Positions 2,444 through 19,500 of a DNA stretch of 28,984 nucleotides are shown here, in pieces. The notes beneath the pieces were generated by a model, which saw only the letters and a program-made list of their open reading frames with translations, did no database searches and had not been told where the DNA came from. How positions within the stretch are numbered: the stretch's first letter is position 1; every line of letters starts with the position of its first letter. This stretch comes from a virus, in IMG/VR virus record IMGVR_UViG_3300046318_000412, positions 1-28,984 of that record; one strand, 5' to 3'. A program made the position numbers and the translations under genes.

Positions 2444-2452
2444 TATAAATAT
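2444..2452 (-). promoter_or_regulatory. Intergenic AT element upstream of the sheath gene (proximal)
   Basis: The coding strand reads ATATTTATA, 27-35 bases before the sheath ATG at 2417. Candidate late promoter. Confidence 0.5.
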
Positions 2453-2503: not shown

Positions 2504-2510
2504 ATAAATA
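2504..2510 (-). promoter_or_regulatory. Intergenic AT element upstream of the sheath gene (distal)
   Basis: A second, less complete copy (TATTTAT core in CCTATTTATTG) lies directly after the hairpin at 2513-2536. The sheath gene may therefore have two promoters, or this copy may simply be the T-rich tail of the terminator. Confidence 0.3.
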
Positions 2511-2512
2511 GG

Positions 2513-2536
2513 AAAGGAGAGTCGAAACCCTCCTTT
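2513..2536 (-). terminator. Hairpin terminator with TTCG loop after the small coiled-coil gene
   Basis: On the coding strand AAAGGAG pairs with CTCCTTT. The inner part (one G-T wobble, then G-C and T-A pairs) closes a TTCG tetraloop. The following TTTCCTATTTATTG is T-rich but interrupted. It lies about 25 bases past the stop of the 91-aa gene and would end the long modification-island transcript. The stem is equally flanked by T residues on the other strand, but no plus-strand gene needs it. Confidence 0.6.
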
Positions 2537-2559
2537 TTATCCTATATGTACGTTTAGAT

Positions 2560-2835
2560 TTATACTGCAGGTACTTCTTCTGCTGGTACTAAAGTAATCT
2601 CACCTGTTTGTAGGTTGATTGATCCTTTTCCGTAAGCCTCTTCTAAGTGTTTTGCAATCTCTTTCTCTTCAGCTACAACCTCTAACAAGAATGCCTCTAC
2701 TGACTCTCTTCTTGATTTTAATTGTAATTTAGCCAATTCGATTTGACCTAATTCAATTACTGCCGAATGAGTTTTGTCTTGAACTTCTCTTACTTCTTTT
2801 AACTCTTTTTCTGTTAGTTTTTTTACTATTTCCAT
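2560..2835 (-). CDS. Small coiled-coil protein of unknown function
   Basis: This 91-aa acidic protein is not recognised as a named family. The first about 70 residues are rich in Lys, Glu, Leu and Gln with heptad-like spacing (from MEIVKKLTEKELKEVREVQD to AEEKEIAKHLEEAYG) and should form a long helical hairpin or coiled coil. A short tail (GSINLQTGEITLVPAEE) looks like a beta hairpin. It starts four bases after the propeller/TPR/methyltransferase gene and is the last gene before a hairpin terminator. The leader is A-rich (AAATTAAAACC). Similar small coiled-coil proteins in phages serve as assembly helpers or chaperones, but nothing here proves that role. Confidence 0.8.
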   Translation of the reverse strand: MEIVKKLTEKELKEVREVQDKTHSAVIELGQIELAKLQLKSRRESVEAFLLEVVAEEKEIAKHLEEAYGKGSINLQTGEITLVPAEEVPAV

Positions 2836-2839
2836 GGTT

Positions 2840-5062
2840 TTAATTTAATTTATTTAACATATATTTTTCTGCGTTCTTAATTCTATCACTCGTATCCTCC
2901 ATACCAGTTAATATGACTGGATCAACTAAGTCTGGATGTACCCACCAATCCTCATAATTTGAGATGTTATTTGGTGCTATATCCGATACTACTAATTGGT
3001 ATCCTTTTGATTGTAAATACTCTCTTGACTTTTCTCTATATGATCTAGTTACATCTGCATAGTAGTCGTGTTCGAAAGTAATCACTGCAAACCTGTACTT
3101 GTCTAGTGGTATCATCTTTAGAATATCCAACGTAACTGATGGTGGTTCACAATCTACTTGTAAGTAGTCGATATCTGTTGTATCGAAGTTCTCTCCAATA
3201 AATACGTCATAGTCTACTTTTGTAGCATCTGTTAGTACTATTTTGTTTGCTCTCTGTGCTTTAAACTTCTCTACCTCATGTGGTAGAATCTCTAACGATA
3301 CTCCTGTCCAGTCGTAGTTCTTTTCAAGCAATGCTGTATTGTTTCCATGAAAAGGATCTGCTGCTCCTATCTCTAAGTACGTACCTTTTTTCTTACCATC
3401 CAACATCGATAGTATAAACATATCTTGGTATGTCTGAGAGTAGTTGCTTACAATCTTATCTGAGTCTTTGAATTTGAATCGTAAAGATGAGTGCATCGAT
3501 GATGTATATCTTAGGAACGGATCTGGTCCTGATCCTAGTGATGTGATATTGTTTTGTACTAACTCGACGTATCTTGGATTCATACTACCTCTCTGTAGAA
3601 CTAGCTCCTGCAATAACTCCCTTGCCTCCATTGTTCTACCAATCCACCAAGCAGCTACTGCTTTTTGGAAGGTTAACATATAGCTTCCCAAGTAGTCCGC
3701 ATCTAGTATGCTTGGTTGTGAGTGCCCATGTGTCAATCCCATACTTGCCATTACATATGCATCTTGCCACTCTTGTTTTGATTCATACCACATACTTAAG
3801 TATAGGTAGGCCTCAGGTCTTGTAGGATCGTTTGCTAATGCATTTTGGTAAGCATGTTTTGCACTATAGGGTCTTCTTCCCTGTTTATCGATACACTTTG
3901 CTACCCTAATTAATGCTGTGTAGGGTTCATTACTATATTCTGCACTTCTTAGGTAGAACGATAATGCTGATGAGTAGTCTTGTGTGTGTTCGTAGTATCT
4001 CCCTACTTGAAAGTTAAGTGTTGGATCGAATGGATTGTTAAGGTAGTCTGCAATCAACCCCTCTTGTCTAGTTTTACCTGTATACTCATTGTGCTCTAAT
4101 CCTAAAAAGGTATTAAGGTAATCTACTGGTATCTCTAGTAGAAATGAAGTTGTATCCTGGAATGCGAATGTAACTAGCATTTTACCCCTATGTAGTGCTA
4201 TTCCACAAGCAAACTCAATTCTTGCAGTCATGAACTTAAAGTCCTCAGTAACGGTTACGACATTCCAGTCCTTATCCCAAACTATGAACCTATGGTAGTA
4301 TTGTCCATCCTTACGTCCATTCTCGTTGTTCCAAAGATCAACCTCATGTGTAAGTGCTATCCTATAATCTCCAAAAGGAATTACTTGTGATCCTCCTCTT
4401 ACATCCCTAGCGAACTCCTTAGTATTTTCTTTAAGGATTACTGTCTCTGATGTGTTAGTAACTGGATCTACTTTAACGATCTCTAAAGGGAAAGTCCACT
4501 TAACGTAGTGGTACGGCATATCCACAATAGGCATCCAGTTTTTCTCACAATACGTATCTGCAGGTGGTTCAATTCTATTTCTAGTTACCTCTGCATTGTT
4601 GACTATTTGTGATAGTTCCATTCTACCTACCCCATTTGTTGTAGTGTCTCTCCTTACTCCTGAGTATAGTAGCTTGTTATCCCATTTAGTTATTCTAACA
4701 TCCTCTAGTCCTACAAACTCCCAAAGTGGTTTTACATCCAACTTAGTTGTATCTACTTTTGCAGATGACACTATTTCTAGTGTATTTGGATCTAGTTTAC
4801 ATAGGTAGTTGGTGGTTGTAAGGGTAATATCATCCTCAGGGTTTAGGTACGCTAATGGTCCCCATTTACTTTGGAATTTCTGCTCACCTTCACTATGATA
4901 CAGCATGTAGTTTATGTGTCTCAAGTTTAGGTAGATGTCGTCTCCCTCTACTAGAATAGATGGATTAATTTGAGGTAGTCCTTGGGTTTGAGAACTTGGA
5001 AGAATTAGAGGTTTAATAAACCCTCCATTATCTATGACCTGTTTACAAAAATTGTCTAACAT
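2840..5062 (-). CDS. Three-part protein: beta-propeller glycosidase-like, TPR, FkbM methyltransferase
   Basis: This 740-aa protein appears to join three parts. Residues about 1-315 resemble the five-bladed propeller of GH43/GH130-like carbohydrate enzymes: INPSILVEGDDIYLNLRH, a LEDVRI motif near 119-124, RGGSQVIPF near 222-230, and RIEFACGIALHRGKMLV near 281-297. Residues about 335-500 are helical with TPR-like spacing (VGRYYEHTQDYSSALSFYLR, then LYLSMWYESKQEWQDAYVMA). Residues about 540-705 look like an FkbM-type SAM-dependent methyltransferase: SQTYQDMFILSML, the SAM-binding loop TYLEIGAADPFHGNNT, and IDYLQVDCEPPSVTLDIL. FkbM enzymes typically methylate sugar hydroxyls. A role in trimming and methylating a glycan is inferred, supported by the neighbouring glycosyltransferases. 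Whether the propeller is catalytic is unknown. Confidence 0.8.
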   Translation of the reverse strand: MLDNFCKQVIDNGGFIKPLILPSSQTQGLPQINPSILVEGDDIYLNLRHINYMLYHSEGEQKFQSKWGPLAYLNPEDDITLTTTNYLCKLDPNTLEIVSSAKVDTTKLDVKPLWEFVGLEDVRITKWDNKLLYSGVRRDTTTNGVGRMELSQIVNNAEVTRNRIEPPADTYCEKNWMPIVDMPYHYVKWTFPLEIVKVDPVTNTSETVILKENTKEFARDVRGGSQVIPFGDYRIALTHEVDLWNNENGRKDGQYYHRFIVWDKDWNVVTVTEDFKFMTARIEFACGIALHRGKMLVTFAFQDTTSFLLEIPVDYLNTFLGLEHNEYTGKTRQEGLIADYLNNPFDPTLNFQVGRYYEHTQDYSSALSFYLRSAEYSNEPYTALIRVAKCIDKQGRRPYSAKHAYQNALANDPTRPEAYLYLSMWYESKQEWQDAYVMASMGLTHGHSQPSILDADYLGSYMLTFQKAVAAWWIGRTMEARELLQELVLQRGSMNPRYVELVQNNITSLGSGPDPFLRYTSSMHSSLRFKFKDSDKIVSNYSQTYQDMFILSMLDGKKKGTYLEIGAADPFHGNNTALLEKNYDWTGVSLEILPHEVEKFKAQRANKIVLTDATKVDYDVFIGENFDTTDIDYLQVDCEPPSVTLDILKMIPLDKYRFAVITFEHDYYADVTRSYREKSREYLQSKGYQLVVSDIAPNNISNYEDWWVHPDLVDPVILTGMEDTSDRIKNAEKYMLNKLN

Positions 5063-5107
5063 ATAACTTATTAAGTGTTTTTATATAATATACAAAACTA
5101 TTTTACA

Positions 5108-5818
5108 TTATCCAACCTGTATATTGAAGTTAATTACTGCTCGATGTTTTTTTCCGTAGAATGGTTCTACTGAGTGGACTATGTCGTATGGCCAGATGAT
5201 TAGCATTCCCTTCTTAGGTCTTATGTAATATTTCATACCTCTGATGTGAAAAGAGAATACACCACTATATGGATGGTCTTGAATTGGATCACCATCAGAC
5301 AAGTAATATCCCCCTGAGAACATGATTGGCTTAGCTTCTTCGTGATGCCATCTGCAGTGGTTGTGTGCATTGTGTCCTCTACCTGAGTATGGGTCATAAT
5401 ATTGTAGCCAACTTTCGGTTATGGTAGGTTTGCTCTTTACTTCTACTTGTATTGATTTAAGTAGTTGTAAAAACCCTCCCTCTATTCGTCTTCTTATAAC
5501 CTGTACATCCTCATCCGGATTATCTAAGAAATCATTTGGTGGAGTATAGAACCTACTTCCAATAGGTGGGAACTCATGATTCTCTACCCACTGATCTTGT
5601 CTGTCGTAACTTACTTGATAGGTAGATTGTCTCTCTTGATCATACTGCTGAGGTAGTTCCTGTCCCATTCTCTTCTGGGTATCTGTAAGAGTCTCTAATC
5701 CTAATTGGTATATCTTATCTGTTAGTACGTCGTCAAAGATTCTTTGATATACAGGAATTGGAGCTAAGTGGAATACATGCTCGTCTGCTGTTTGTATGAG
5801 TGGCTGTTTAAAGTACAT
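5108..5818 (-). CDS. 2-oxoglutarate/Fe(II)-dependent oxygenase-like protein
   Basis: This 236-aa protein has the phage-type 2OG-Fe(II) oxygenase pattern in its C-terminal half. A His-rich segment (HNHCRWHHEEAKPIMFSGGY, about residues 152-171) supplies a likely HxE/HxD iron ligand pair. FSGGYYLSDGD is the typical 'SGxYYL' strand, WPYDIVHSVEPF carries the distal histidine (about H215), and KKHRAVINFN carries the arginine expected to bind 2-oxoglutarate (about R226). The frame stays open to an ATG at 5908, but that would overlap the upstream gene by 89 bases. The ATG at 5818 lies one base past the upstream TAG and is preferred. The substrate is unknown: a sugar, a virion protein side chain, or something else in the modification island. 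Confidence 0.78.
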   Translation of the reverse strand: MYFKQPLIQTADEHVFHLAPIPVYQRIFDDVLTDKIYQLGLETLTDTQKRMGQELPQQYDQERQSTYQVSYDRQDQWVENHEFPPIGSRFYTPPNDFLDNPDEDVQVIRRRIEGGFLQLLKSIQVEVKSKPTITESWLQYYDPYSGRGHNAHNHCRWHHEEAKPIMFSGGYYLSDGDPIQDHPYSGVFSFHIRGMKYYIRPKKGMLIIWPYDIVHSVEPFYGKKHRAVINFNIQVG

Positions 5819-5819
5819 A

Positions 5820-6575
5820 CTATACGTGTTGAAAGTAGATGGTCTTATTTGGGAGTACCTTGTTAAGGTCTCTTTGAGTAAAATGGGTATCCTGCTTTGC
5901 ACTAGCAACTAGTGGTTCAAATCTTAACGAGTACTCCTCTATGTTATTACAGTGCTGTTTTGCATACTGTAGAAATCCCATCTCCTCAATTGCTATATTA
6001 ATATCGCTATTTTGTTTGAGTATACCTACTAAGGAATTAATGGAGTCGTAACTACTACAGTAGATAAATCCTGCATTTGGAGTAACAAAGGAATCTTGCC
6101 ACTTATAGTGGAACTTGGTTAGCCCCTCATACTGCTTCTCTATGTACTGCTTTTCCTTTATTGGAATATCTAGCCACTGACTATAGACTTGCTCTTTGTA
6201 GTTAATAGGGTATACGTATAGTGGCATCTGAATACTATCTCTGCTTCTCAGTAGCTGATAGAAGTTGTCATCCAGCTCTCTCTCCTGTAGGCAGTCCCAA
6301 TCTAGAAATACTACTTCTTTGAATTGAAGTACACCTGATTGAATTGCCCAGAGTTTAGGTAGCATGTATATGTCTGAGTTGTTTAAGTAGTCGTACTCGA
6401 ATTCTCCCATATACTCACATTCAAATCCTAACGATTTTATGTAGTTATAGTTTGATTGGCCCCAAACATATACGTAGTCATCTAACTTAGATGTGTTTCT
6501 TATGTTAAGTATCTCATCCGAATGCCTCCCACCAAAGGCTGAGAGGTCTCCCCAATATGCTCTAATGAATCTCAA
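5820..6575 (-). CDS. Putative glycosyltransferase, DWDC family copy A
   Basis: This 251-aa protein is one of three paralogues in the island. The shared pattern is an N-terminal RAYWGDL strand, VYVWGQSNYNYI about 35 residues on, then EVVFLDWDC (D92-W93-D94), polar loops with PLYVYP, the segment TPNAGFIYCSS, and a C-terminal YFQHV. A hydrophobic strand ending in DxD is the hallmark of GT-A glycosyltransferases, where the aspartates bind the metal and nucleotide-sugar. TPNAGF resembles the acceptor-side strand of GT32/GT8-like enzymes. Its start overlaps the stop of copy B by four bases (ATGA), so the two are probably translationally coupled. The sugar and acceptor cannot be read from the sequence. 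Confidence 0.72.
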   Translation of the reverse strand: MRFIRAYWGDLSAFGGRHSDEILNIRNTSKLDDYVYVWGQSNYNYIKSLGFECEYMGEFEYDYLNNSDIYMLPKLWAIQSGVLQFKEVVFLDWDCLQERELDDNFYQLLRSRDSIQMPLYVYPINYKEQVYSQWLDIPIKEKQYIEKQYEGLTKFHYKWQDSFVTPNAGFIYCSSYDSINSLVGILKQNSDINIAIEEMGFLQYAKQHCNNIEEYSLRFEPLVASAKQDTHFTQRDLNKVLPNKTIYFQHV

Positions 6576-7354
6576 TTGTGTTTGAAATAGAGGTTCTTAT
6601 CTATCTTACTTCTGATATACGAATCCAACATTGCTTGTTCATTAATCCACCACTCCTCTGAATGTAGCTTACCTGCAATAGCTTTTGGTTCTACGTTCTG
6701 TATGTACGAATCTAAATCATATCCTAATTCTTTAGCATAACACATTACAGCGAACTCGTCAGGAACGCTTTCTAAATTATGTATATCACACAGTTCTAAT
6801 AGTCTCTCAGTAATCTCACTATTTCTACAGTAAATAAATCCTGTGTTAGGAATAACGTAGTTAGTTCCAAACTCGTAAGAATGTAACTGTATCATTTCAG
6901 TTAACTTAATAAAGAACCTATTTGTTGTCTCTTGTTTAGTTTTCTCAACTAACCATCCTAAGGCATGCTTTGGGTATACGTAAAGTGGTACTTGAAGTTC
7001 AGTACCGTTACTTAGTGTTTGGTAAAAGTCTGAATCTAAGTTACGTAGTTTTTGGCAGTCCCAATCTACGAATATAATCTCTCCATACTCCTTAACTGCT
7101 ATATCTATGCATTTTAGTTTGTGAATTAAACTCCTATAGTCCCAAAACGTATGATTAGATGCTATAGTGTAGTCATACGGCTCTTCTGAGATTAGTTTGC
7201 ATTCGTATCCTAGTTGTGATATGTAGCTGTAGTTCTCTCTACCCCATACGTATACCGTCTCACCTAAATTGTCTTGTAGGGCTTCTTTCATTTGATCTGT
7301 GTACCTAGTCCCCATGGAATGTAAATCCCCCCAAAATGTTCTTATGATTTTCAT
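6572..7354 (-). CDS. Putative glycosyltransferase, DWDC family copy B
   Basis: This 260-aa paralogue of the genes at 5820 and 8390 starts MKIIRTFWGDL and carries VYVWGRENYSYI, EIIFVDWDC (D97-W98-D99), PLYVYP, IPNTGFIYCRN and a closing LYFKHN. It is closer to copy A than to copy C; A and B share the WGDL and PLYVYP blocks almost unchanged. The DxD at the end of a hydrophobic strand supports a GT-A fold nucleotide-sugar transferase. The gene starts seven bases after the radical-SAM-like gene and overlaps copy A by four bases. The leader (AAAATAAAGAAC) has no clear Shine-Dalgarno. Confidence 0.72.
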   Translation of the reverse strand: MKIIRTFWGDLHSMGTRYTDQMKEALQDNLGETVYVWGRENYSYISQLGYECKLISEEPYDYTIASNHTFWDYRSLIHKLKCIDIAVKEYGEIIFVDWDCQKLRNLDSDFYQTLSNGTELQVPLYVYPKHALGWLVEKTKQETTNRFFIKLTEMIQLHSYEFGTNYVIPNTGFIYCRNSEITERLLELCDIHNLESVPDEFAVMCYAKELGYDLDSYIQNVEPKAIAGKLHSEEWWINEQAMLDSYIRSKIDKNLYFKHN

Positions 7355-7361
7355 ATGTTCT

Positions 7362-8390
7362 TTATTTTAAGTACCCATTATGGAATGGATAGTAGAATTC
7401 TATCTCCTGATTTAATTCTTTAGCTAATTGCTCTGCTCTCTGTTGTGCTTCCCAAAATAGTTCCCAATTACTTTTGTTGCATAACATATCTCCTTTCAAA
7501 GCCATTCCATCGTCACTGTAGTAGGTTAGGGAGAGTTGTATCTTATGTGCTCCTAAGTTATTTGCAAAACGTACCATATCCTCAACTTCGTGTAGGTTTA
7601 GCATATTAATATTGTTTGAAATAAAGGAATTATCCTTTTCTTTTTTCACTATACTAGCTTTTTTGAAATACATCTCCAAGTTACGTTGTATAGTTTTAAA
7701 ATAATCTAACCTCCTTACCTTAATGTAGGTCTCAGGAGTTGTAGCATCTATTGAAAATCCTAAAGAGGTGTAGTCTGTGTATTCATTTAAAAATAAATCT
7801 TGATACTTTTCTCCTAAAACAGTAGCATTCGAGTAACTCCAAAACCACTTCCCTTCCATGTGAGTTCTCCAATCTACTTTATCTAGTACCTCAAATATCC
7901 TGCCTTTCCAAAAGGGTTCTGCTATACCTAGTACGGTAAATGATCTAAGGTGAGGTATTACTGGTTTTATCTTATCCAATAGCTGATCGGTATAATCTAC
8001 ACCGCCATCACGTTTCATAAACTCAACACTGGATCTAGGGCACATTATACATGCAGTTTCTGGTGTTGGATTCAATCCTCCTATATTACACCAAGTAGAT
8101 GGTAGGTTTAGTTCTATTTGTTCTGGGTATTCTAATACCTGTACGTTGTTGTCTTTTTGTAGTTGCTTAAAGAAGTAGGGACATTGCTTATTGTTACAGC
8201 TTGTGTGGAGAGCGTTGTTTAGAGTTTCAACCCTAACTTGTTTTAGTTTAGGGAGCTTTAATGCCTCTTCTATACTAAGGTTGTCTGTTATGAGGTTCCC
8301 ATAGTACTCTGTTTGGTGGCAGCATGACTGAAACTCACCATTAGCGTCTATCTTCAGCTTACTCCAAGGTAAAAAACAATATGCTTTCAT
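7362..8390 (-). CDS. Radical-SAM-like protein with an N-terminal SPASM-type cysteine set
   Basis: This 342-aa protein opens with CFLPWSKLKIDANGEFQSCC (C5, C23, C24), then GNLITDNLSIEEALKLPKL and C65/C70. This is the pattern of a SPASM/twitch auxiliary iron-sulfur domain, normally found after the radical SAM core. The likely core cysteines follow at C101, C114 and C117 (C-x12-C-x2-C, with CIMCP at the end) rather than the canonical C-x3-C-x2-C. Later segments fit a partial TIM barrel: SFTVLGIAEPFWKG (a GEP-like motif), TSLGFSIDATTPETYIKVRR and HKIQLSLTYYSDD. It lies among glycosyltransferases and its start shares one base with the stop of copy C. The substrate is unknown. Loss of radical SAM catalysis is possible given the altered cysteine spacing. 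Confidence 0.7.
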   Translation of the reverse strand: MKAYCFLPWSKLKIDANGEFQSCCHQTEYYGNLITDNLSIEEALKLPKLKQVRVETLNNALHTSCNNKQCPYFFKQLQKDNNVQVLEYPEQIELNLPSTWCNIGGLNPTPETACIMCPRSSVEFMKRDGGVDYTDQLLDKIKPVIPHLRSFTVLGIAEPFWKGRIFEVLDKVDWRTHMEGKWFWSYSNATVLGEKYQDLFLNEYTDYTSLGFSIDATTPETYIKVRRLDYFKTIQRNLEMYFKKASIVKKEKDNSFISNNINMLNLHEVEDMVRFANNLGAHKIQLSLTYYSDDGMALKGDMLCNKSNWELFWEAQQRAEQLAKELNQEIEFYYPFHNGYLK

Positions 8391-9157
8391 TAAATATGCT
8401 TTACGTATAGGTCCATAGGTAGTTTTGAATCTATATGGTTATTTAGATGAGATTGCACTTTGCTTATCATCAAATCATGGTTAGTTCTATCCTGGCTAAC
8501 TCCCTGTATAAAATATGGTTGGTATTTTTCTAAATACTCTTCCAATGTGCAACTGGAGTAGATATAGAATGCGTGTTCTTCGATACATCCTTCTAATTTA
8601 TTTTCAATAGCGATATCAAGTAACACTTGTCCTAGTGTAGTATCTCTTGTATATATCATACTAAAATTAGGACTTATTAATCCATCTCCTAATTCCCAAC
8701 TATACTTACTAAATCCCTCTTCCATTTTTAAAAAGAATTGACTTAGTTTATCAGAAGGATTTGGAAATGCTTCTAGTAGTGCCGATACTACTTTACTATG
8801 TTGAGAGTATAGAGGACATTGTACTGGCCTGGTCTTTAAGTATTGGTAAAACTGAGTATCTAAAGGTCTTAGTATGTAACAATCCCAATCTAACATCATT
8901 ACTTCTTTAAATTCTTCAAGTGCTAGTTTTAATGCTATCAACTTGTTTCCGTATTGAGTATTATCTGTATTGAAATATGGGTACAGGTCTTCAGAGACTA
9001 ATCTAGTCTCGTATCCTAATTCTTTAAACATACTCTCATTATCCTCTCCCCATACGTAAACTATTTCTTGTTTTGGATATACAGGAAAGGGAGGTAGTTC
9101 TCTAATTGTTGCAGGATTGCTCCCCCAATATGCTCTAATTATTTTTATGGTGCTCAT
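8390..9157 (-). CDS. Putative glycosyltransferase, DWDC family copy C
   Basis: This 255-aa protein is the most divergent of the three DWDC paralogues. It carries KIIRAYWGS, IVYVWGEDNESMF, EVMMLDWDC (D90-W91-D92), CPLYSQHS, ISPNFSMIYTRD and a final LYVKHI. It lacks the GD after YWG and the PLYVYP block, so its substrate may differ from those of A and B. The DxD suggests a metal-dependent GT-A nucleotide-sugar transferase. The ATG at 9157 gives a 23-base overlap with the upstream gene. No closer ATG keeps the conserved RAYWG start, so the overlap is probably real. It overlaps the radical-SAM-like gene by one base (TAATG). Confidence 0.7.
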   Translation of the reverse strand: MSTIKIIRAYWGSNPATIRELPPFPVYPKQEIVYVWGEDNESMFKELGYETRLVSEDLYPYFNTDNTQYGNKLIALKLALEEFKEVMMLDWDCYILRPLDTQFYQYLKTRPVQCPLYSQHSKVVSALLEAFPNPSDKLSQFFLKMEEGFSKYSWELGDGLISPNFSMIYTRDTTLGQVLLDIAIENKLEGCIEEHAFYIYSSCTLEEYLEKYQPYFIQGVSQDRTNHDLMISKVQSHLNNHIDSKLPMDLYVKHI

Positions 9158-10124
9158 CCCAGTATTTTTTAAAACGTGAATGACTCAGGTATTCCTGTAA
9201 GCCTAGTTCTATACATTCCTCAAAGTATCTCTGAGATTCTCTCTGTTCTAGGCTCTTGTCTAGTGCAAAGTGTATTTTATTAAACCAAACATGCTCCCAG
9301 TCTACTAGTCCTTCTTTTTCTATATTTGAGTCCACCGGGTAGTACCATGCTTCGGACTTACCTTTGTATCTTTGTGATTTATCTCCGTAATTACTGTTTG
9401 CTAAAAATACCCTATCGGTTAAGGTGTCTACTTGATAATCTCCCTCTCTAATAACGTGTCCTAATATTCCCTGGTCAGTAAGTAGCCAGAACCATTCCGG
9501 TACTTCTTCTCCTTTTGTACTTACTAAGTCTCTATGCCAATTATGGTACTCTTTTAATAGTGTCAGGTTGTTAATACATAGAAAAGATGTATTAGGAGAC
9601 CAGTCTGATGTGTTGTAGTTATCTGGGAAAGGTATGTGAGATATCTGTTTATCCCAATCCTCTTTCTCAAAGTAATAATATCCTCTCGGTATTTCCCAAT
9701 GGGTAACTGTTAGGTCCTTATCAAGCATCTGCTGAGGTAATTTAGTTCGAATTATCATATCCTGATCTAAAAATACGAATGGGGATGTTTGATGTGCTAG
9801 GCACTTAATTTTACCACTAGTCCAGAAATACGCCGGATCTACTTTTGATTTTGAATATCCATTTAAGAAGTTAATATCAATCTCATCATATAAGTGATGT
9901 ATATTGAATTGTCTATAAAACTCTAACCCTACTGAGTCTGTGTATAGTTTAATAGGTCCGTTAAGTTCTTTGTAGTAGGCTGCTGATAATATAGTATAAA
10001 GTATCTGAATGTCTGGTTGATCGTAGCAGTTTCCTTTCAGTAGCCTCGTTGATTCAAATCCATGACCTCTTAATCTCTCCTTATGAAAGAAAGGTGCTGT
10101 CCAATTTACGTGTATTCCTTTCAT
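9135..10124 (-). CDS. Putative glycosyltransferase with DQD motif (DUF6734-like)
   Basis: This 329-aa protein resembles a second glycosyltransferase-like family that I associate with DUF6734. It has a helix with LYTILSAAYYKELNGPIKLY then TD, VDPAYFWTSGKIKCLA before the metal site, and PFVFLDQDMII (D120-Q121-D122) as the DxD at a strand end. NTSFLCINN near the middle is the usual acceptor-side strand, and TDQGILGHVI follows. The C-terminal region (VWFNKIHFALDKSLEQ) is typical of GT-A enzymes with a late metal-binding histidine, here IHFALDK. It starts two bases after the next upstream gene, with which it shares the FW-x2-x-K-x-K block and DxD, so the two are distant paralogues. Confidence 0.68.
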   Translation of the reverse strand: MKGIHVNWTAPFFHKERLRGHGFESTRLLKGNCYDQPDIQILYTILSAAYYKELNGPIKLYTDSVGLEFYRQFNIHHLYDEIDINFLNGYSKSKVDPAYFWTSGKIKCLAHQTSPFVFLDQDMIIRTKLPQQMLDKDLTVTHWEIPRGYYYFEKEDWDKQISHIPFPDNYNTSDWSPNTSFLCINNLTLLKEYHNWHRDLVSTKGEEVPEWFWLLTDQGILGHVIREGDYQVDTLTDRVFLANSNYGDKSQRYKGKSEAWYYPVDSNIEKEGLVDWEHVWFNKIHFALDKSLEQRESQRYFEECIELGLQEYLSHSRFKKYWDEHHKNN

Positions 10125-10126
10125 AA

Positions 10127-11014
10127 CTATACATTTTTTATAACTTTAATTTTCTCCTGCAATTCCTCTGTGTCATGTAACCTACTCGACTTAATACATC
10201 TATATAGGAATTCTATTTCTTTTTCGTAATCAAATCCTTGTTGGTTCTGTTTGAATCGAGATTTATCTACTCCGTAATGCTTACAATATCGTGATATTTC
10301 TCTATGATTCCAAATGCCGTTTTCAACTTCGTCTAGTGTATACTTGATATTGTTACAATCCCAAATATTCTTGCAAAGTGCTTGATGAGGTATTTGTCTA
10401 CTACTTAACCACTGTTTAAGCATTAACTGTTCTGATAGTATCATATAGTTTGCAGATAAGTCATCTATGTACATTGCTGATAACTCTACGTGGTTCTGTA
10501 GAGCCTGTTTTGCATACTCTCTAGCAAATTGCGGGTCTGGTAGGTACAGTAAGCTGACATTAGCTGCTAAGTCATTCACATACTTGATTGGTTTTGACAG
10601 TGATTGATTTGCTTTGTTGTTTTCTTTTGGGTACCAGGTATTGGCTTGCTCGTTGTACGTAAAAATAACTTGATCTTTTAAGTGCTCATCTATATTAGTA
10701 TAAATCAGAAAATCGTGATCAACTACTACTAAGGGTATTTTAGTTTCACTTACTATCTTCGATTTGCAGCTTGACCAAAATACCTCTCGATTTATTTTCT
10801 CAGGATACGATAAATGACGTATGTCGTCCCATAGGCTAAGTACTCCTAGTTGAGATAGCACACCGTTTGTCATTTCATCACAGTACATAACGGTTTTATG
10901 GTTAGGATGATGCTTTTTCCATAAACAGATAGAAGCTACTAAAATAAGTAGCTCCAGTTTGCTGTAGAATGATCTATCTCCTTTTACATTTTCTAAAACC
11001 CAAATTGCTTCCAT
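10127..11014 (-). CDS. Putative glycosyltransferase with DHD motif (DUF6734-like)
   Basis: This 295-aa protein is a distant paralogue of the gene at 9135. It has KLELLILVASICLWKKHH, a short strand KTVMYCDEMTN, REVFWSSCKSKIVSE, and PLVVVDHDFLIYT (D99-H100-D101) as the candidate DxD. ANVSLLYLPDP occupies the place of the NTSFLCIN strand in its neighbour. The C-terminal about 60 residues are basic and helical (YCKHYGVDKSRFKQNQ and following). A GT-A fold is inferred from the DxD strand and neighbourhood. It is the first gene of the modification island in transcription order, three bases after the small B-repeat-like protein, so fibre and island genes appear to share one transcript. Confidence 0.65.
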   Translation of the reverse strand: MEAIWVLENVKGDRSFYSKLELLILVASICLWKKHHPNHKTVMYCDEMTNGVLSQLGVLSLWDDIRHLSYPEKINREVFWSSCKSKIVSETKIPLVVVDHDFLIYTNIDEHLKDQVIFTYNEQANTWYPKENNKANQSLSKPIKYVNDLAANVSLLYLPDPQFAREYAKQALQNHVELSAMYIDDLSANYMILSEQLMLKQWLSSRQIPHQALCKNIWDCNNIKYTLDEVENGIWNHREISRYCKHYGVDKSRFKQNQQGFDYEKEIEFLYRCIKSSRLHDTEELQEKIKVIKNV

Positions 11015-11017
11015 GTA

Positions 11018-11470
11018 CTATAGGAACTGTGCGTATAATGTACTGTAGGAGTTACATGCATTTGCATCTAGATTAAGAGTATTACTGTAAGATATTACAG
11101 TCCCTCCGTTAGGTAATGTCCACCATCCATTAAAAGTGTACCCGTAGTTTACAGTACACGCTATTGATATATACGTATACGTACCTGTATATGCTTGTCT
11201 ATCGTGTCCTATTAAACTGGTGCTTGTAGATTGCTCTGTCCATGGGTATAGTATACGGGCATATCCTTTAGTAAAATTTGACGTAGCTATATTTATCCAT
11301 ATTAGAGGATTTCCTGGTACGTAGTAGTTAACGTTTAGGCTGCTTAGTGAACGCTGTGGATATGTAGCAGTACCCATGATACCGCTAAAACTGCTACTTG
11401 ACCTGTTGGTATATTGTCCAAATGTCGAGATTAGTCCTCGATTTGTAGAGGTTATTGCTTTATATCCCAT
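11018..11470 (-). CDS. Small putative virion protein with a Listeria-Bacteroides B-repeat-like end
   Basis: This 150-aa protein is rich in Ser, Thr, Tyr and Gly. About residues 104-150 carry CTVNYGYTFNGWWTLPNGG and then, near the end, TLYAQFL. That matches the InlB B-repeat/Flg_new pattern (GYTFxGWxT...TLYAxW/F), a small beta-grasp-like module found in bacterial surface adhesins. The first about 100 residues are not recognised. C105 and C139 could pair. It follows directly on the 177-aa gene with no gap and precedes the glycosyltransferases by three bases. A surface or adhesion role fits the neighbouring fibre genes but is inferred. Confidence 0.65.
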   Translation of the reverse strand: MGYKAITSTNRGLISTFGQYTNRSSSSFSGIMGTATYPQRSLSSLNVNYYVPGNPLIWINIATSNFTKGYARILYPWTEQSTSTSLIGHDRQAYTGTYTYISIACTVNYGYTFNGWWTLPNGGTVISYSNTLNLDANACNSYSTLYAQFL

Positions 11471-12004
11471 TTATATCTCGTCTATTATATTGCCACTTCC
11501 AAACATAGAGGCATATACCTCTTTTACTTTTGCATAAGAGTGCTCGTATATGCTCCCTGTGATTAATCCTAAATCTAGTAACGTCTTCTCTACCTCTCTA
11601 CTTCCTGAGGTGGTTGTCTCGAATGTCTCCTCTCTTTGTTTTACTATCTCTTCTCCGTTTTCGTCAAAGTCGATATAGTCGACTAATTCCGTATGGAATG
11701 ATGATGATACGAAAGGTTCGGTTACTAAAACACTTGCTGTTACTGGAAATTCATACCACATAGGATACTCTCTCCATTCTCCATCATATGACATTGAAAC
11801 TGCTACTCTACCGTACGGTTCTGGAGTATCTTCTAGGTACTTTGGGAAGTTAGATGCTGCTGCTTGTGGTGTCTCATAGTGAGCTACTGATGTACCTACA
11901 ACACCTCTTAGTTTGTTTAACTGATAGTGCTCTATTCTGACATAGAAGCTATCTAAATGATCTCCTTCAAAGGTCTCAATTGACTGTGATACTATAAATC
12001 CCAT
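11471..12004 (-). CDS. Hypothetical protein, possibly virion-associated
   Basis: This 177-aa acidic protein is not recognised. About residues 20-105 look beta-rich (FYVRIEHYQLNKL, GRVAVSMSYDGEWREYPMWY, FPVTASVLV). About residues 110-150 are acidic (YIDFDENGEEIVKQREETFE), and the C-terminus is helical (YAKVKEVYASMFGS). No signal peptide or membrane segment is seen. It sits between the small DUF7936-like pair and the B-repeat-like protein, with an 18-base upstream gap and an A-only leader (AATAAAAAAAAAATAATAAA). The position downstream of a large fibre suggests a fibre-assembly or accessory part, but nothing specific shows it. Confidence 0.72.
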   Translation of the reverse strand: MGFIVSQSIETFEGDHLDSFYVRIEHYQLNKLRGVVGTSVAHYETPQAAASNFPKYLEDTPEPYGRVAVSMSYDGEWREYPMWYEFPVTASVLVTEPFVSSSFHTELVDYIDFDENGEEIVKQREETFETTTSGSREVEKTLLDLGLITGSIYEHSYAKVKEVYASMFGSGNIIDEI

Positions 12005-12744: not shown

Positions 12745-15700
12745 TTATTTATTTGTTAACTGTTTTACTAATTGTTTTAATTCGTCTATTTGTGTTTGTT
12801 GTTCTTTTATACACTCTATAAGTAAGGATACTGTATTTCCGTACGATACTGATAATTCTCCTTTTGCATTCTCAGATACAAGCTCTGGCATAGCCTCTCT
12901 CATTTCTTGAGCTATTACTCCGGCATGTCTTTTCTCTTTATCGTCAAGATCGGTTCTAGTAAATGTAACCCCTCTTACTTTTTTAATTCTCTCTAATGGG
13001 TTATCTATAACTTGAACATTGTCCTTTACTCTAGCATCTGAATATGCTATAACGTCTCCAGAACACCAGATGTTTGTCGATATTGCAGCCATTGTAGTAC
13101 CTGCTTGTTGTACAAGCATACCATGGCTTGATAAGTTAGATGCTGTTCCTCCATGGTTAGGATGTGACCAGGCTATTCCATAGTGGTTAGATGCACTTGA
13201 TCCGTCGGCTGCCAATTTATACGCATCACCCATTGCAAACACTCCTTGTAAGCGAGTTGATGTATATACTCCTACTACGGTATTTCCATAATTATCATCT
13301 ATGTAGAAGTTACCATTAGCTCTTGTAGCTCTTGCTGCGTTTCCTGTAATTGCAATACCCCAAGTACCTGATGCATTTCCTCCTGTTAGGGTTGGTGCAA
13401 ATGAATTATAATTACCTGAGTGTAGTATTGTGTACCAAGCATTCCATCCACCTGATGTTTGTCTTCTCAATCTCCAGTCATCTCCCCAAAATGAACCTGC
13501 CATTTGCCATCTATATCCATCAGAGCCAGACCATGAGTTACCTGCTACCGTAAGCCAGTTCCACCAATCTGATGATGGCATACCTGTTGTACTATTCCCA
13601 AAATAAAATCCTGATGAGTTTGAAGAATCAGATGCATTAGCACTCTGTGATGTTCTATCTTTAGATCTACCATTTGCTCCATCTCCATACACAACATTAT
13701 TTGCTCCTGAGAATGTGCCTGCTACTGCTAGGCTGTTTAGATTAGACGTAGATGCAGGATCTGTGTAATATCCTGTATTATTTGAATCGTAGAAGATAGG
13801 TGCTCTAAAGTCTCCACTAGCTACTGCAATACCTCCGGTTGTTACACCAAATACATCAGCTCCTGCAGCATCTGAATAAAAGTGTATATCACTTGTACTA
13901 TTAATACCGGCTGATGTTCTTTTTCCTATATACCATGTACTACCTGCTCCTCCTTGAAATCTAACCATTGCTTCATACCCAGTACCTGGGTTTATGTATA
14001 GGTACTTGTTTGAGGCTCCTGTTATGGTTAGGTCATATAAGTTACTTGTTGAAGCTGGATCTACATAGTACCCTGTATTGTTATTATCGTAGAATATTGG
14101 AGCTCTAAGAGAACCGTTTGAATATCCTGTACCTATGTCATGTATATCGGTACTGTTCTTATACATTGCACCGTACTGCCACATTGTACTTCCACAATAT
14201 ATCCCTGATGGGTGCCATGATGCTGCTCCTGTTCCTCCTACGTTACCATTACCTCTATAAGAGTACGAGTATACCTCGTTGAAGTTGATGTTAGGAGCTT
14301 GAGATGCTGCGACTGTTCCGAAAGAAGTTACAAGGGATATTTCCCATCCATTATTCCAGTTTCCTGCACTACCGTTTGAATATCCTCCCATAAAATCCAT
14401 AACAGATACTACTGGGTGTGTCCAAACTGTTGATGTTTCTCCTATCCATACACAGTCGTACCCTCCTTGGTTACCGAATCTAACTGTTTGAGCTACTGAA
14501 CTCTCTCCTCCTAAATAAGTGGCTGAGAAGTTATAAGCTCCTGCTGAATATGAGTAGTTTCCTAACAAGTACTCAGCAGTTTGATTAGTTTGATAATTAT
14601 AAATCCTTACCTTCATCGACCACATAGTGTCGTTAGCTCTATTAGGAAGTCTGATTTTTATAGCTCCGGCTACTGTACCTGGTGTGTATGAATACGCTGC
14701 TCCTTTGGGTGCAAAAACACGAGATGTTACACCTCCTGATGAGTGTCCATTACTTCCGAAAGCACCATCTGAAAATACACTTCCTGCTATTCTAGCAGAG
14801 GTAGTTGCAGAGTTTGGATCTGTATAGTATGCCGAATCATTAGCATCGTAATAAATTGGCGAGTACATACTCTGACCTGACTGTACATATGTAGATGAAT
14901 ATATGTATCCTGATGTCTGTAAAATCCCTCCTCCTGATACAGATGCTACGTTGGTACCACTTCTTCTAAATATCCACCCTCTTGAACTATCGTCGTTCAT
15001 TGTAAAATACGTAGCCCAGTCTCCTGATACTGATCCGTGAGTACCAAAAGTAGGTGTTCCTGCAAACATTAAACCATAACTAGGTTGTCCAGATACTCCT
15101 CCGTTATATAGAGAGATACCGTTACCGGTTGTACTACTTGAATTGGCAACTCCTATATAAGCTCCATTTAGGGTACTAAATAAACTAGTTGAAGCTGGGT
15201 TTGCGTAGTATCCTGTATCGTTTGAATCGTAGAAGATAGGGGATCTCATATCTACAGTAGCAGTTACTGCACCTCCTGATGATATGTTAAATCTAGAAAG
15301 ACCATTCGTGATATCTCTAATTTCAAATCCTCCATTTGCTACACCGTTTATGTATGGGTTAACACCCCATCGTATACCTCCTACAGCGCCTGTATAGTCT
15401 AACTCTAAGTTAGACATGTAAGCTCTAATATTCCCGTTAACATCTAGTTTATACGAGCTGTTTGGTGTACTACCAATCGCAACGTTACCTGATGAGTTTA
15501 TTGATAATCTGTTATTATCGTATCCTCCTGTATATATTGTAAATCCTTCAGAAGCATTACCTAAAGCTAGTGCTCCAAATTTAAGTCCATTATAGCTATT
15601 AATTCCCGATATAGCGTTACTTTGCAATCTCATTGTACCATGAGCTGCTGTAGTACCGGTTACATCTTGGTAGAATCCGTTACTATCTAATCCTGTACTA

Positions 15701-16488
15701 GAGTATGCTGATGTTCCTCCGTATCTTGTATATCCTGTTACTTGTAACGTACTACCGTCAAACGTTAAGTTAGCCTCAGCATTAATAGTTGAGCTATTAA
15801 CCGAAGTCAATACTCTATTATCAGAAGCATTAGTATAAGAAGTAATACCTGCATTAGTTCCTTGAATACCCTGTACTCCTTGTACCCCTTGAGTACCAGT
15901 TGTACCTTGAGAACCTGTACTACCCTGTGCTCCGGTAGCTCCTTGAGCACCATTTGAACCAGCAGTACCTTGAATTCCTTGAGCTCCAGTTTGTCCAGTT
16001 GTACCTTGAGAACCTGTTGCTCCTTGACTACCAGTTGATCCGGTAGTTCCTTGGATACCTTGAGTACCTTGAGCTCCTGTTTGACCTGTAGTACCTTGTG
16101 CTCCATTTGTTCCACTAGTTCCTTGGCTTCCTATTGCTCCTTGAGCACCAGTTATACCTTGGCTTCCGTTAGTCCCTGAGGTACCTTGAATACCTGTGGT
16201 TCCTTGTCTTCCTTGTAGACCTTGTAGTCCTTGGATTCCTTGAGTACCCTGAGATCCATTTACACCAGAAGTACCTTGTCTTCCTTGTAGTCCTTGAACT
16301 CCCTGTACTGTTGGTGTAGCGGCAAAGTGAGCATATGAGGCTGTTACGGCATACGATGCCGAAGTAGCATTTTGTGCAGTTCCTTTTAGTGTTCCGTTTA
16401 TATCTCCTGTAACTGACAGGGATCCGGTCATAGTTGTATCTCCTATAACTTGTAATGATCCTGTTACGAGTCCGCTATCTATTATCAT
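12745..16488 (-). CDS. Giant tail fibre/adhesin with collagen-like stalk and S74 chaperone end
   Basis: This 1247-aa protein is a fibre built from modules. Residues 1-58 contain TGSL/TGDI and TSASYA motifs and probably form the virion-attachment end. Residues about 60-212 are an uninterrupted G-x-y collagen-like stalk without proline. Four FYDSNNTGYY-type repeats start at about residues 415, 542, 795 and 895. A beta domain with GAIKIRLPNR lies near 608-720, and a knob-like segment with DWWNWLTVAG near 940-1000. The last about 98 residues match the S74 intramolecular chaperone: SDARVKDN begins it (S1150 is the predicted self-cleavage serine), GVIAQEMREAMPELV follows, and a coiled coil closes it. 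Such chaperones trimerise fibres and then cut themselves off. The ATG at 16488 has an AT element 22-30 bases upstream. Confidence 0.9.
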   Translation of the reverse strand: MIIDSGLVTGSLQVIGDTTMTGSLSVTGDINGTLKGTAQNATSASYAVTASYAHFAATPTVQGVQGLQGRQGTSGVNGSQGTQGIQGLQGLQGRQGTTGIQGTSGTNGSQGITGAQGAIGSQGTSGTNGAQGTTGQTGAQGTQGIQGTTGSTGSQGATGSQGTTGQTGAQGIQGTAGSNGAQGATGAQGSTGSQGTTGTQGVQGVQGIQGTNAGITSYTNASDNRVLTSVNSSTINAEANLTFDGSTLQVTGYTRYGGTSAYSSTGLDSNGFYQDVTGTTAAHGTMRLQSNAISGINSYNGLKFGALALGNASEGFTIYTGGYDNNRLSINSSGNVAIGSTPNSSYKLDVNGNIRAYMSNLELDYTGAVGGIRWGVNPYINGVANGGFEIRDITNGLSRFNISSGGAVTATVDMRSPIFYDSNDTGYYANPASTSLFSTLNGAYIGVANSSSTTGNGISLYNGGVSGQPSYGLMFAGTPTFGTHGSVSGDWATYFTMNDDSSRGWIFRRSGTNVASVSGGGILQTSGYIYSSTYVQSGQSMYSPIYYDANDSAYYTDPNSATTSARIAGSVFSDGAFGSNGHSSGGVTSRVFAPKGAAYSYTPGTVAGAIKIRLPNRANDTMWSMKVRIYNYQTNQTAEYLLGNYSYSAGAYNFSATYLGGESSVAQTVRFGNQGGYDCVWIGETSTVWTHPVVSVMDFMGGYSNGSAGNWNNGWEISLVTSFGTVAASQAPNINFNEVYSYSYRGNGNVGGTGAASWHPSGIYCGSTMWQYGAMYKNSTDIHDIGTGYSNGSLRAPIFYDNNNTGYYVDPASTSNLYDLTITGASNKYLYINPGTGYEAMVRFQGGAGSTWYIGKRTSAGINSTSDIHFYSDAAGADVFGVTTGGIAVASGDFRAPIFYDSNNTGYYTDPASTSNLNSLAVAGTFSGANNVVYGDGANGRSKDRTSQSANASDSSNSSGFYFGNSTTGMPSSDWWNWLTVAGNSWSGSDGYRWQMAGSFWGDDWRLRRQTSGGWNAWYTILHSGNYNSFAPTLTGGNASGTWGIAITGNAARATRANGNFYIDDNYGNTVVGVYTSTRLQGVFAMGDAYKLAADGSSASNHYGIAWSHPNHGGTASNLSSHGMLVQQAGTTMAAISTNIWCSGDVIAYSDARVKDNVQVIDNPLERIKKVRGVTFTRTDLDDKEKRHAGVIAQEMREAMPELVSENAKGELSVSYGNTVSLLIECIKEQQTQIDELKQLVKQLTNK
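13744..15246 (-). repeat. Four dispersed FYDSNNTGYY repeats in fibre 1
   Basis: A 21-residue unit of the form RAPIFYDSNNTGYYTDP plus Ala-Ser-Thr-Ser occurs at 13744-13806, 14044-14106, 14803-14865 and 15184-15246. Each unit starts a new beta segment and is separated from the next by 80-230 residues. The second from the N-terminus is the most diverged (YDANDSAYYTDP). The same unit occurs three times in fibre 2. Confidence 0.85.
15853..16308 (-). repeat. Collagen-like G-x-y repeat region of fibre 1, proline-free
   Basis: About 50 consecutive triplets, mostly xQG and TxG (for example GIQGLQGLQGRQGTTG), encode residues about 60-212. I see no proline in the tract. Interrupted copies of CCTTG/TACCTTGAG at the DNA level make the region prone to slippage and recombination. 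Confidence 0.9.
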
Positions 16489-16509: not shown

Positions 16510-16518
16510 TATAAATAT
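16510..16518 (-). promoter_or_regulatory. Intergenic AT element upstream of fibre 1
   Basis: The coding strand reads ATATTTATA, 22-30 bases before the ATG at 16488, in the 40-base gap after fibre 2. Candidate late promoter for fibre 1 and the genes after it. Confidence 0.5.
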
Positions 16519-16528
16519 TAAAATTTAA

Positions 16529-19500
16529 TTATCCTACTAGTGTTTTTACTAGTGCTTTTAATTCGTCTATTTGAGATTGTTGGTTCTCAATTTGAGTTTG
16601 TTGTTCTTTTATTGCTTCAATTAATACTGCTGTTATGTTACCATAAGATACTCCTAACATACCGTCCTCTTGTTCAAATACTACTTGTGGTAATACTTCT
16701 TGAATCTCTTGAGCAATAACTCCGACCTTTTCTGATTTATCTTCTACGTCATTTCTACTGTATGTAACTCCTCTTAATTTAGTTACTTTATCTAAAGCAT
16801 TTTCTATAGTAGATATATTTTCTTTTACTCTTTTATCTGAGTAAGCTACTATATCTCCTGATGTTGTAAGGGTTCCTCCAAGAGTAAGTCTCATTCTCAT
16901 GGCTTCAGAACCACCGCTATTGCCCCAAAACGTTAAATCATCTGTAGAGTCTATACCAGTAAACCCGATTGCCCAGTTTCCGTCATTCCCTCCTCTATCT
17001 CTTGTAAATCTAATTCCACCCCAAGTATTTGTTGAAGGTACTCTAATTCTTATACCCTCTGCCCAAGAAGCTGATCTTGCATAACAGTCAATATTACCGT
17101 TAACTGCTAAAGAAGTTGATGTTGATGAAGGATCTAGGTAATACCCTGTATTATTTGAATCATACAACAATGGAGCTCTAACGTCGGTAGCAACAACTAC
17201 ATTTCCTCCTGGGGTTAAGTTCATAGTTGTTGTCCTAGTTCCACTTGTATTGGTATTGTAAAAGTACCAGTTACCATCTGTGGCCATTCTCATATATGCT
17301 TGGCCGTACGAAGTATTTAACCTACCAAAACCGCTAGGAGTTCCTGCATCATTTGTTACGTTATATCCAAAACCACCTTCATTCCAAGTTACGTTAGGTT
17401 CTGATACCCACCAACTCATTGCTGATGTAACTCCTGATCCTAAATCACTACCGTTAGCTGTTAACCTTATCTCAGTATCGTAATGTCCTCCTGTTACCTC
17501 TAACACACCTCTTAGGTACGATCCACCAGACGGGTTTACATAGTAGCTTGTGTTATCTGAATCATAGAATATTGGTGCCCTAAAACTAGTATTAGAGTAT
17601 ATGTAACCATTATTTATACCTCCTACAAGGCCATAATCCCATTCATAAAAATCAAGTCCAAAAAATACAATTCTGGCAAATGTTCCTTGATTCTCAAAAG
17701 CAAGTCCTGGTCCTGATCCTCCTCCATATCCTCCAAACCATGAAGAGTTGCCTGAGAAGCTAGTACTACCGGTAAAGGTATATGTACCACTTCCGTCTCC
17801 ACTGGTGAAGTTTAAATTACCCCCTGATGCTCTAATACTCCAAGATCTAGTTCCTGATTGATCGAATTTTAAATAATTACCATTTACAGTAAGGTCGTTA
17901 CCAAATGATACACTGCCACCGCCACTATACACTAGAGGTGTTACTAAGTGGGTAGTAGCACTAACTACAGGTGCATAGAAATTCTGATAAGATCTTACTT
18001 CATCTGATTTGAACCCAAATATCTTATTCCAACCTGATGAGTATATCCCAAATGCTCTAGCACTATCCATATGAATACCCATTCCATATCTTCCAAATAC
18101 ACCTTCGGTTGTACTAGCTTTTATTATACCTTCATCCCAACCGTTTCCTGTATCTGCTGGTCCAAATCTAAATAAAGGCCATTGTACTGTATTTGTATTG
18201 GTAAACCCAAGTTGAGTGTATCCACCTGAGTTTTGGTAGTAGTTATCTGCATTTACCGTAACTACATTACTTGTACCGTTTGGGTTTAGGTAGTATCCTG
18301 TATTATTTAGGTCGTAAAAAATAGGTGCTCTAAGTGAACCATTTGCTTCACCGTATGTATCGAAGAAAACAGCACCACTTGGAGTACTTAGATTTAAGTT
18401 AGTATCTCCGTTAAGCGATATTGTATTTTTATAAGTACCAGATCCGATAACTATATTACCAAATCTAGATGATGTTGATGTTCCTGTGAATGATGTAGCC
18501 GAAACAGTGCCTACAGTTACAAGGGAAGATCCATTAAATGCTAACCAAGCAGTACCCATTACTCCTGCAGCACCTGATGATGCTGTACCAAACCAGTATG
18601 AATTTGCACCAAGTCCCAATGCTCCTGTAGTTCCGGTAATTCCGAATCCCGCACCTATGTTACCTGCTCTAGTTAGTCCGTAGTAGCTGTAGTTTGAAGC
18701 ATTGGCTGGTTCTGTAACAGCCATTGTTCCATATGGATCCGCTCCTGCACCATTGCCATATACGCTAATAGCTGTAGTAGCTAGATTTGTACCATCAAAA
18801 GTTAAATTACTTTCAGCATTAATAGTTGAGCTATTAACAGATGTAATTACTCTGTTATCGGAAGCATTTGTATACGATGTAATACCTGCATTAGGTCCTT
18901 GTACTCCTTGAATACCTTGTATACCCTGTGCTCCTGTTGTTCCTTGAATTCCTTGGGTACCTTGTGATCCGTTTGAACCAGCAGTACCCTGTATTCCTTG
19001 AATACCTTGAACTCCATTTGAACCTGCAGTTCCTTGAATACCCTGTATACCCTGTGCTCCGTTTGAACCATTTGTACCTTGAATACCTGTAGTTCCCTGT
19101 CTTCCCTGTAATCCTTGAATTCCTGTAATACCCTGAGCACCTGTTGCTCCTTGAGTACCTTGTCCTCCTATACTTCCTCCCACTCCTTGTATACCCTGTG
19201 TTCCTTGAACACCTTGTACTGTTGGAGTTGCTGCAAAGTGAGCATATGAAGAAGTAACTGCATAAGAAGATGAAACAGCATTGGTAGCTGTTCCTAATAC
19301 TGAACCAGTTATAGATCCCTGTACTCGAAGTGAACCAGTCACACTCATTACATCGTCTGATGAATCACCAAACTTAGTAGATCCTGATTTATATACAATA
19401 GATGATGAAACAAGCTCAGTATAAAACTCTTCTGCTGTTATTTTACCAGTTACCGTCAAGTCTCCCTCTACTGTTTTGTTACCTGGTACTAATGCAGAAG

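Follow-up and report, generated by a model that had tools for sequence, protein, structure and literature searches.

Glycosyltransferases (GTs) of aquatic phages are usually read as protecting phage DNA or as altering host lipopolysaccharide (LPS). The DNA glucosyltransferases of phage T4 are GT-B enzymes acting on hydroxymethylcytosine DNA; on the protein side, LH3/PLOD3, COLGALT1 (GT25), and Mimivirus L230 are lysyl hydroxylases/glycosyltransferases of collagen, and Bacillus BclA forms glycosylated, collagen-like surface filaments of Thr-rich G-x-y triplets. Sugars have also been linked to phage particles: in mycobacteriophages, subunits of the capsid and of the tail tube bear glycans (Freeman et al. 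2023, cited in PMC12619734), phage-encoded GTs are taken as a pointer to capsid glycosylation in a passage of PMC11256854, and glycoproteins have been reported for phage XacN1, whose genome has genes for two glycosyltransferases (PMC5852040). Pelagimyophages, T4-like phages of aquatic habitats, carry radical-SAM cassettes and GTs, mostly of GT8, beside their tail fibers, from which the authors infer a modification of the host O-antigen/LPS (PMC7029224, in its account of this region). Here, we analyzed the viral record IMGVR_UViG_3300046318_000412 over its full 28,984 bases (the window), which holds an island of eight minus-strand genes (2840-11014) tightly packed between fiber genes and the tail sheath gene.

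On balance, and with moderate confidence, we favor reading this island as a cassette for protein glycosylation that is mobile and reshuffled and is devoted to the tail fiber of the phage itself. Since the same set of genes travels with fiber genes in unrelated viruses, its enzymes probably decorate the virus's own fibers with sugars, and gene order, the layout of promoter motifs, and an exchange of blocks between near-identical phages point here in the same direction. A first-pass annotation, made from the sequence of the window, had described eight consecutive genes with short overlaps and gaps, and all open reading frames (ORFs) and spacings were reproduced: going downstream from 10127-11014, we find a gap of 2 bases, overlaps of 23 and 1, a gap of 7, an overlap of 4, and gaps of 1 and 45. 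The eight genes are as follows.

10127..11014, minus strand: GTB2, predicted GT-A-like glycosyltransferase, a DUF6734 paralog (BLASTP E=4e-8, 23% identity to 9135-10124) with a conserved DxD.
9135..10124, minus strand: DUF6734 protein, predicted GT-A glycosyltransferase (PF20508 and fold comparison).
8390..9157, minus strand: GTA3, predicted GT-A glycosyltransferase (AlphaFold2 [AF2] fold matches; invariant DWD and C-terminal His).
7362..8390, minus strand: RSAM, radical-SAM-like protein with an N-terminal Twitch/SPASM domain (PF13186, invariant CX12CX2C).
6572..7354, minus strand: GTA2, second member of the GTA family (family identity, invariant DWD).
5820..6575, minus strand: GTA1, third member of the GTA family (family identity; TTG start in a TTGA overlap).
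5108..5818, minus strand: OXY, 2-oxoglutarate (2OG)-Fe(II) oxygenase-like protein (phrog_81 E=8.4e-17; Pfam below cut-off).
2840..5062, minus strand: FKBM, propeller-like, tetratricopeptide repeat (TPR), and FkbM-type methyltransferase protein (weak TPR and PF05050; homologs).

The five DxD proteins do fall into one family of three and one of two, as first proposed. GTA1, GTA2, and GTA3 share 31-32% identity and an invariant DWD (D90-W91-D92), which, together with the metal-ligand-like C-terminal H254, is kept across 10 homologs. The DUF6734 protein passes the PF20508 cut-off (49.2 bits against 27) and shows D120 and D122 invariant in its alignment, and its paralog GTB2 has no Pfam match, the DUF6734 profile included. 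The first-pass annotation had called for structure prediction of the GT-A folds that it assumed, and the AF2 models of both families agree with them. That of GTA3 (predicted local distance difference test [pLDDT] 86.6) has its best PDB fold matches in XXYLT1 (E=9.6e-7), the GT domain of LH3, UGGT, COLGALT1, and GT8, and that of the DUF6734 protein (pLDDT 77.6) returned glycosyltransferases as the best 50 PDB fold matches listed, with UGGT (1.8e-6), LARGE1, and glycogenin among them. Because TM-scores are modest in both families (about 0.45 for GTA3), the GT-A fold class is supported but donor and acceptor are not. By predicted fold, the GTA and DUF6734/GTB2 families are thus supported as GT-A glycosyltransferases.

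The calls of a radical-SAM-like protein, a 2OG-Fe(II) oxygenase, and a propeller/TPR/FkbM fusion hold as well; most of the supporting scores fall short of curated cut-offs in the proteins of the window, and some relatives give firmer ones. RSAM passes for the SPASM domain PF13186 (24.2 bits, cut-off 21.5) and stays below for PF04055 (17.4 against 29.5) and for N_Twi_rSAM NF033640 (61.3 against 170, E=8.8e-17); the canonical CxxxCxxC motif is absent, and a CX12CX2C is found in its place, invariant in all 7 homologs. OXY, with a Pfam E-value of 4.5e-5, is below the cut-off of 27 bits for both PF13640 (24.7 bits) and PF13759 (24.1). No other enzyme of the cassette is as well conserved: the relatives in alignment A6 share 72-94% identity, with several His, an acid, and Arg226 invariant. 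PF05050 scores 16.8 bits against 22.7 in the window's FKBM and 41 bits in its DSL-LC02 homolog. The propeller-like domain of FKBM spans about residues 1-320; when compared with the GH130/GT108-type propeller, it gave a PF04041 match of E=0.08 in one homolog only and no PDB sequence hit. In two Synechococcus phages the homologs of FKBM are separate proteins, one pair being annotated as a beta-mannosyltransferase and an FkbM methyltransferase. PDB sequence searches with the GTA, DUF6734, RSAM, and OXY proteins and the FKBM N-terminal domain were uninformative, and whole FKBM retrieved designed proteins only, through its TPR part. By tblastn, homologs of GTA, DUF6734, OXY, RSAM, and of the small protein S177 described below are absent from 50,697 isolate phage records, and scans of genome contigs with A7 and A6, whose seeding patterns were narrow, returned no bacterial homologs.

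The linkage to fibers is best seen from the genes that flank the island.

16529..19576, minus strand: FIB2, second S74-type fiber, with 36 collagen-like triplets.
12745..16488, minus strand: FIB1, S74-type tail fiber, whose collagen-like tract counts 50 G-x-y triplets.
12390-12743, minus strand: SM117, small protein (phrog_7802), in tandem with SM116 and adjoining the fiber.
12023-12373, minus strand: SM116, small protein (phrog_7802), in tandem with SM117 and adjoining the fiber.
11471..12004, minus strand: S177, small protein and cassette hallmark (16/16 S177-anchored loci; alignment A9).
11018..11470, minus strand: S150, small Ser/Thr-rich protein (26% S+T), kept in several cassettes.
2560..2835, minus strand: SM91, conserved small gene, right border of the variable site.

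In line with the flanks first described, the island is preceded by fibers, which contain collagen and have S74-type chaperone ends, and followed by sheath and tube. With its tube, sheath, neck, S74-type fibers, PhoH, and end of the major head protein, the window represents a fragment of a T4-like myovirus; Flavobacterium phage immuto is its nearest isolate (69% identity between sheaths), and its hosts are likely aquatic bacteria of the Bacteroidota. At the place corresponding to the island, immuto encodes small genes and a lysozyme only. Among 80 sheath-anchored relatives, the stretch running from the fibers to SM91 and the sheath is hypervariable, being either empty or filled with varied cargo, including GT25, UDP-glucose/GDP-mannose dehydrogenase, epimerase, sulfotransferase, and C-methyltransferase genes.

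Within this variability, the relatives appear by their gene content to carry a mobile, reshuffled cassette, in which a fiber, S177, S150 or GT25, GTB2, DUF6734, one to three GTA, a radical SAM protein, and an oxygenase recur. S177 itself has no informative PHROG match. In the S177-anchored scan, GT genes lie beside S177 and an S74-type fiber just upstream of it at 16/16 loci, in several phage backbones, so that the expectation that relatives would keep the island by their fibers is borne out in related and unrelated phages alike. Co-occurrence of S177 and GTs is also seen in the sheath-anchored sample (5 records with both, 0 with S177 only, 3 with GT only, 24 with neither; Fisher p=3e-4). The cassette precedes the sheath in immuto-like phages, and in other contigs it stands behind a fiber and its next genes are primase/exonuclease or head/terminase genes. 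The order fiber-S177-S150-like-GTB2-DUF6734 is found again in a 177-kb phage of another backbone, at a site that was reached through DUF6734 and not through the fiber. OXY and DUF6734 are jointly present in 6/12 large records and jointly absent in the other 6/12, a figure to be taken as descriptive since these records were not chosen blindly. In a Synechococcus phage, whose host has a different envelope, the FKBM homolog sits between collagen-like and other fiber genes.

Several loci depart from this pattern or extend it. L253 is the only S177 locus with an altered order (fiber, 186-aa ORF, GTB2, S177). In L119-L122, an OXY-GTA-DUF6734 cluster is accompanied by epimerases, GDP-mannose dehydratase, carbamoyltransferase, and a tryptophan-halogenase-like gene. 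At the same site as the island, L052:3-4743, L054, and L072-L082 carry tandem radical-SAM/SPASM-related paralogs, some of which adjoin UDP-sugar dehydrogenase/epimerase genes, and a DUF401 protein (58 bits) occupies the fiber-sheath site of another relative (L048:8087-9088). A 635-aa protein with a C-terminal intein/Hint-type domain lies beside GTA and DUF6734 genes in L116:6577-8484. Finally, L176:6968-15214 and L178 encode a 1897-aa collagen fiber of 238 triplets, followed by two small genes and then by a 2OG oxygenase of a second type and a homolog of FKBM, with no GT genes in view.

Between near-identical phages, the end of the fiber and the GT set differ as one block, which fits a glycan matched to the fiber tip. 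From the tube to the start of OXY, the window and L012 (contig 3300047545_000594) share 98.3% nucleotide identity, and this identity breaks sharply at the start of OXY; L012 is devoid of GTA1, GTA2, and RSAM, and its identity to window positions 9273-13056 is 78.5%, beyond which the fiber differs.

The transcriptional layout of the window also ties the island to the fibers. The motif TATTTATA occurs 8 times on the minus strand (52-59, 641-648, 2444-2451, 12449-12456, 16510-16517, 20812-20819, 26822-26829, and 27549-27556). It lies 21-34 bases upstream of the tube, sheath, FIB1, neck, and PhoH genes and marks the start of no island gene. The elements that frame the island are as follows.

16510..16517, minus strand: TATTTATA, late-promoter-like motif upstream of FIB1.
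2513..2536, minus strand: terminator-like hairpin of 10 pairs, between SM91 and the sheath gene.
2444..2451, minus strand: TATTTATA motif upstream of the sheath gene.

In relatives, the motif precedes 60/60 tube, 44/55 sheath, and 5/6 neck genes, and just 2/149 cassette enzyme genes, and is likely a late-promoter variant of this T4-like group; a sigma-70 scan found no excess of sites. Within 1-20000, the strongest terminator hits of the minus strand are at 2536-2513, after the island and before the sheath, and at 108-86, after the tube, a weaker one (10955-10932) falling inside island coding sequence; this agrees with the earlier statement that no terminator separates the island from the fiber genes upstream. 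The hairpin at 2513..2536 is likely the end of the fiber-island transcription unit. Because the motif stands at the starts of virion genes and of no island gene, and because the terminator lies beyond the island, the latter is probably transcribed late with the fiber, and the layout is most simply read as one late unit that starts with FIB1, takes in the island, and ends with SM91, the sheath forming a unit of its own. FIB1 would likely be both substrate and first gene of the unit, and an internal start in SM117 is possible since a further TATTTATA lies inside it (12449). The idea that the island acts on a phage product is accordingly kept for the fibers, to which linkage and probable late co-transcription point rather than to DNA, and disfavored for the sheath, an unlikely target because a terminator and its own promoter-like motif set it apart and because the module sits beside fibers in contigs with no sheath in view. 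Farther upstream, a 261-aa protein (27609-28394, minus strand) without PHROG match lies between PhoH and a small gene of a tail-fiber family, and resembles a von Willebrand factor A domain by eye (DYTGSMGS).

The folds and families of the enzymes, the order of the genes, the linkage seen in different backbones, the arrangement of promoter motifs and terminators, and the block exchange are what the sequences show; from these we infer that the substrate would be the fiber or an accessory protein, and propose the following chemistry and purpose. The cassette would be transcribed late together with FIB1, SM117, SM116, S177, and S150; its GT-A enzymes would build a glycan from host nucleotide sugars on the fiber or on an accessory protein of the S177/S150 type; and the oxygenase, the radical SAM protein, and the FkbM-type methyltransferase would tailor the acceptor side chain or the sugar. 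This glycan, varied together with the fiber tip, might serve receptor engagement, stability, or masking. More tentatively, and with somewhat less than even confidence, a transferable glycosylation cassette for tail fibers, made up of a fiber, S177, GT-A enzymes, and an oxygenase, with or without a radical SAM protein and a methyltransferase, could pass in one piece from one aquatic phage to an unrelated one. Fiber and glycan would then be exchanged jointly, which would give host range or masking a second level of variation, outside the amino-acid sequence of the fiber. Several points weigh against a cassette dedicated to the fiber. Glycosylated virions are a prediction from gene content, and the OXY, RSAM, and FKBM assignments are, as seen above, below curated cut-offs in the window. 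The block exchange would look no different if it came from physical linkage alone, and a recombination hot spot taking up any cargo could account for the linkage to fibers. In some phages, the GT/oxygenase set sits behind the tape-measure gene (L110) or belongs to clusters with carbamoyltransferase and GDP-mannose dehydratase that are not seen near fibers (L119), and the UDP-sugar dehydrogenase, epimerase, sulfotransferase, and C-methyltransferase found at the same site would also suit the synthesis of an envelope glycan.

This last point leads to the main alternative, which we judge unlikely while giving it real weight, namely that GTs and tailoring enzymes alter the LPS or capsule of the host late in infection and exclude competing phages, their adjacency to fibers resulting from the coevolution of receptor recognition and receptor alteration. 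Such is the authors' reading of the GT8 genes in the tail-fiber hypervariable region of pelagimyophages, where radical-SAM cassettes are found too (PMC7029224, same account), and both the same-site cargo, with its GT25 and dehydrogenases, and the GDP-mannose dehydratase and carbamoyltransferase of some clusters would agree with it. However, the window holds none of the lipid carrier, flippase, or polymerase genes for export, nor genes for nucleotide-sugar synthesis, the earlier claim that the latter are missing being true of the window and not of the same site in relatives. Moreover, the cassette is apparently transcribed with late virion genes, S177 is always accompanied by a fiber and a GT, and FKBM homologs occur in cyanobacterial phages, whose hosts have a surface unlike that of the likely Bacteroidota host.

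A collagen-type modification, in which the oxygenase would hydroxylate the G-x-y tract of the fiber and the GTs glycosylate it, as with LH3/COLGALT1 or Mimivirus collagen, seems improbable. Collagen tracts do adjoin the cassette in the window, L012, L097, L099, L100, L101, L102, and L150, LH3 and COLGALT1 are among the fold matches of GTA3, GT25 homologs occur in sister cassettes, and in L176/L178 a second oxygenase and FKBM follow a collagen fiber. Against this, the cassettes of L003 and L107 accompany fibers without collagen runs, tracts also occur without a cassette (L027, L080), and the 86 triplets of the window contain no Lys and a single Pro. As a general function of the cassette, collagen hydroxylation/glycosylation is rejected on account of such collagen-free fibers in several carriers and by tracts without Lys and nearly without Pro, and the suggestion that collagen tracts are the general substrate falls with it.

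We hold a DNA or nucleotide modification, along the lines of the T4-type glucosylation of hydroxymethylated bases, to be very improbable: phage GTs often have DNA as their substrate, and bases can be oxidized by 2OG oxygenases, but the cassette sits with late fiber genes and is missing from most relatives. Moreover, the module-free G013 and G014 have PF00303 (thymidylate-synthase superfamily, which includes dCMP/dUMP hydroxymethylases), whereas the 176.6-kb carrier G009, whose completeness is not established, lacks it, so that DNA glucosylation is disfavored. Scarcely credible, lastly, is a hot spot of unrelated auxiliary genes between fiber and sheath with no common function, since the same set and order recur together across different backbones, for all that the site is hypervariable and that many relatives have other genes or none there.

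If the island does modify the fiber, the receptor specificity of environmental phages would not be predictable from fiber sequence alone, virion glycosylation would extend beyond capsid and tail tube to host-binding fibers, and DUF6734 would gain a function as a GT-A glycosyltransferase. S177, as hallmark and possible acceptor, is a small protein on which this can be tested.

With regard to known systems, the likeness to the T4 DNA glucosyltransferases is limited to the common trait of phage-encoded GTs, as the enzymes here are predicted GT-A, late, and fiber-linked, and the large carrier tested has no hydroxymethylase-superfamily genes. LH3, COLGALT1, and L230 share with the window the association of a 2OG oxygenase and GT-A enzymes with collagen-like proteins, along with the fold match of GTA3 to the first two, but the window's enzymes are separate proteins, its collagen tract lacks Lys, and the cassette also accompanies noncollagen fibers. 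BclA is comparable to the window's fibers in its Thr-rich G-x-y filaments. What appears new is the composition and order of the fiber-linked cassette, its presence in several backbones, its S177 hallmark, and the fold-based GT-A assignment of DUF6734. By contrast, GT and radical-SAM genes beside T4-like tail fibers are already known from the hypervariable region of pelagimyophages (PMC7029224, in the part describing it), so that the set is less unfamiliar in a tail cluster than the first-pass annotation supposed; the window shares with that region the T4-like phage and the GT and radical-SAM genes beside tail fibers, and differs from it in a conserved fiber-S177-GT-oxygenase unit that this part of PMC7029224 does not describe. 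Virion glycosylation is likewise known from mycobacteriophages, to which the likeness lies, in the cited passage, in phage-encoded GTs linked to virion sugars; here, many predicted GT-A enzymes stand behind a fiber gene together with an oxygenase, a radical SAM protein, and a methyltransferase, and their target, as judged from the genes, would be the fiber or an accessory protein.

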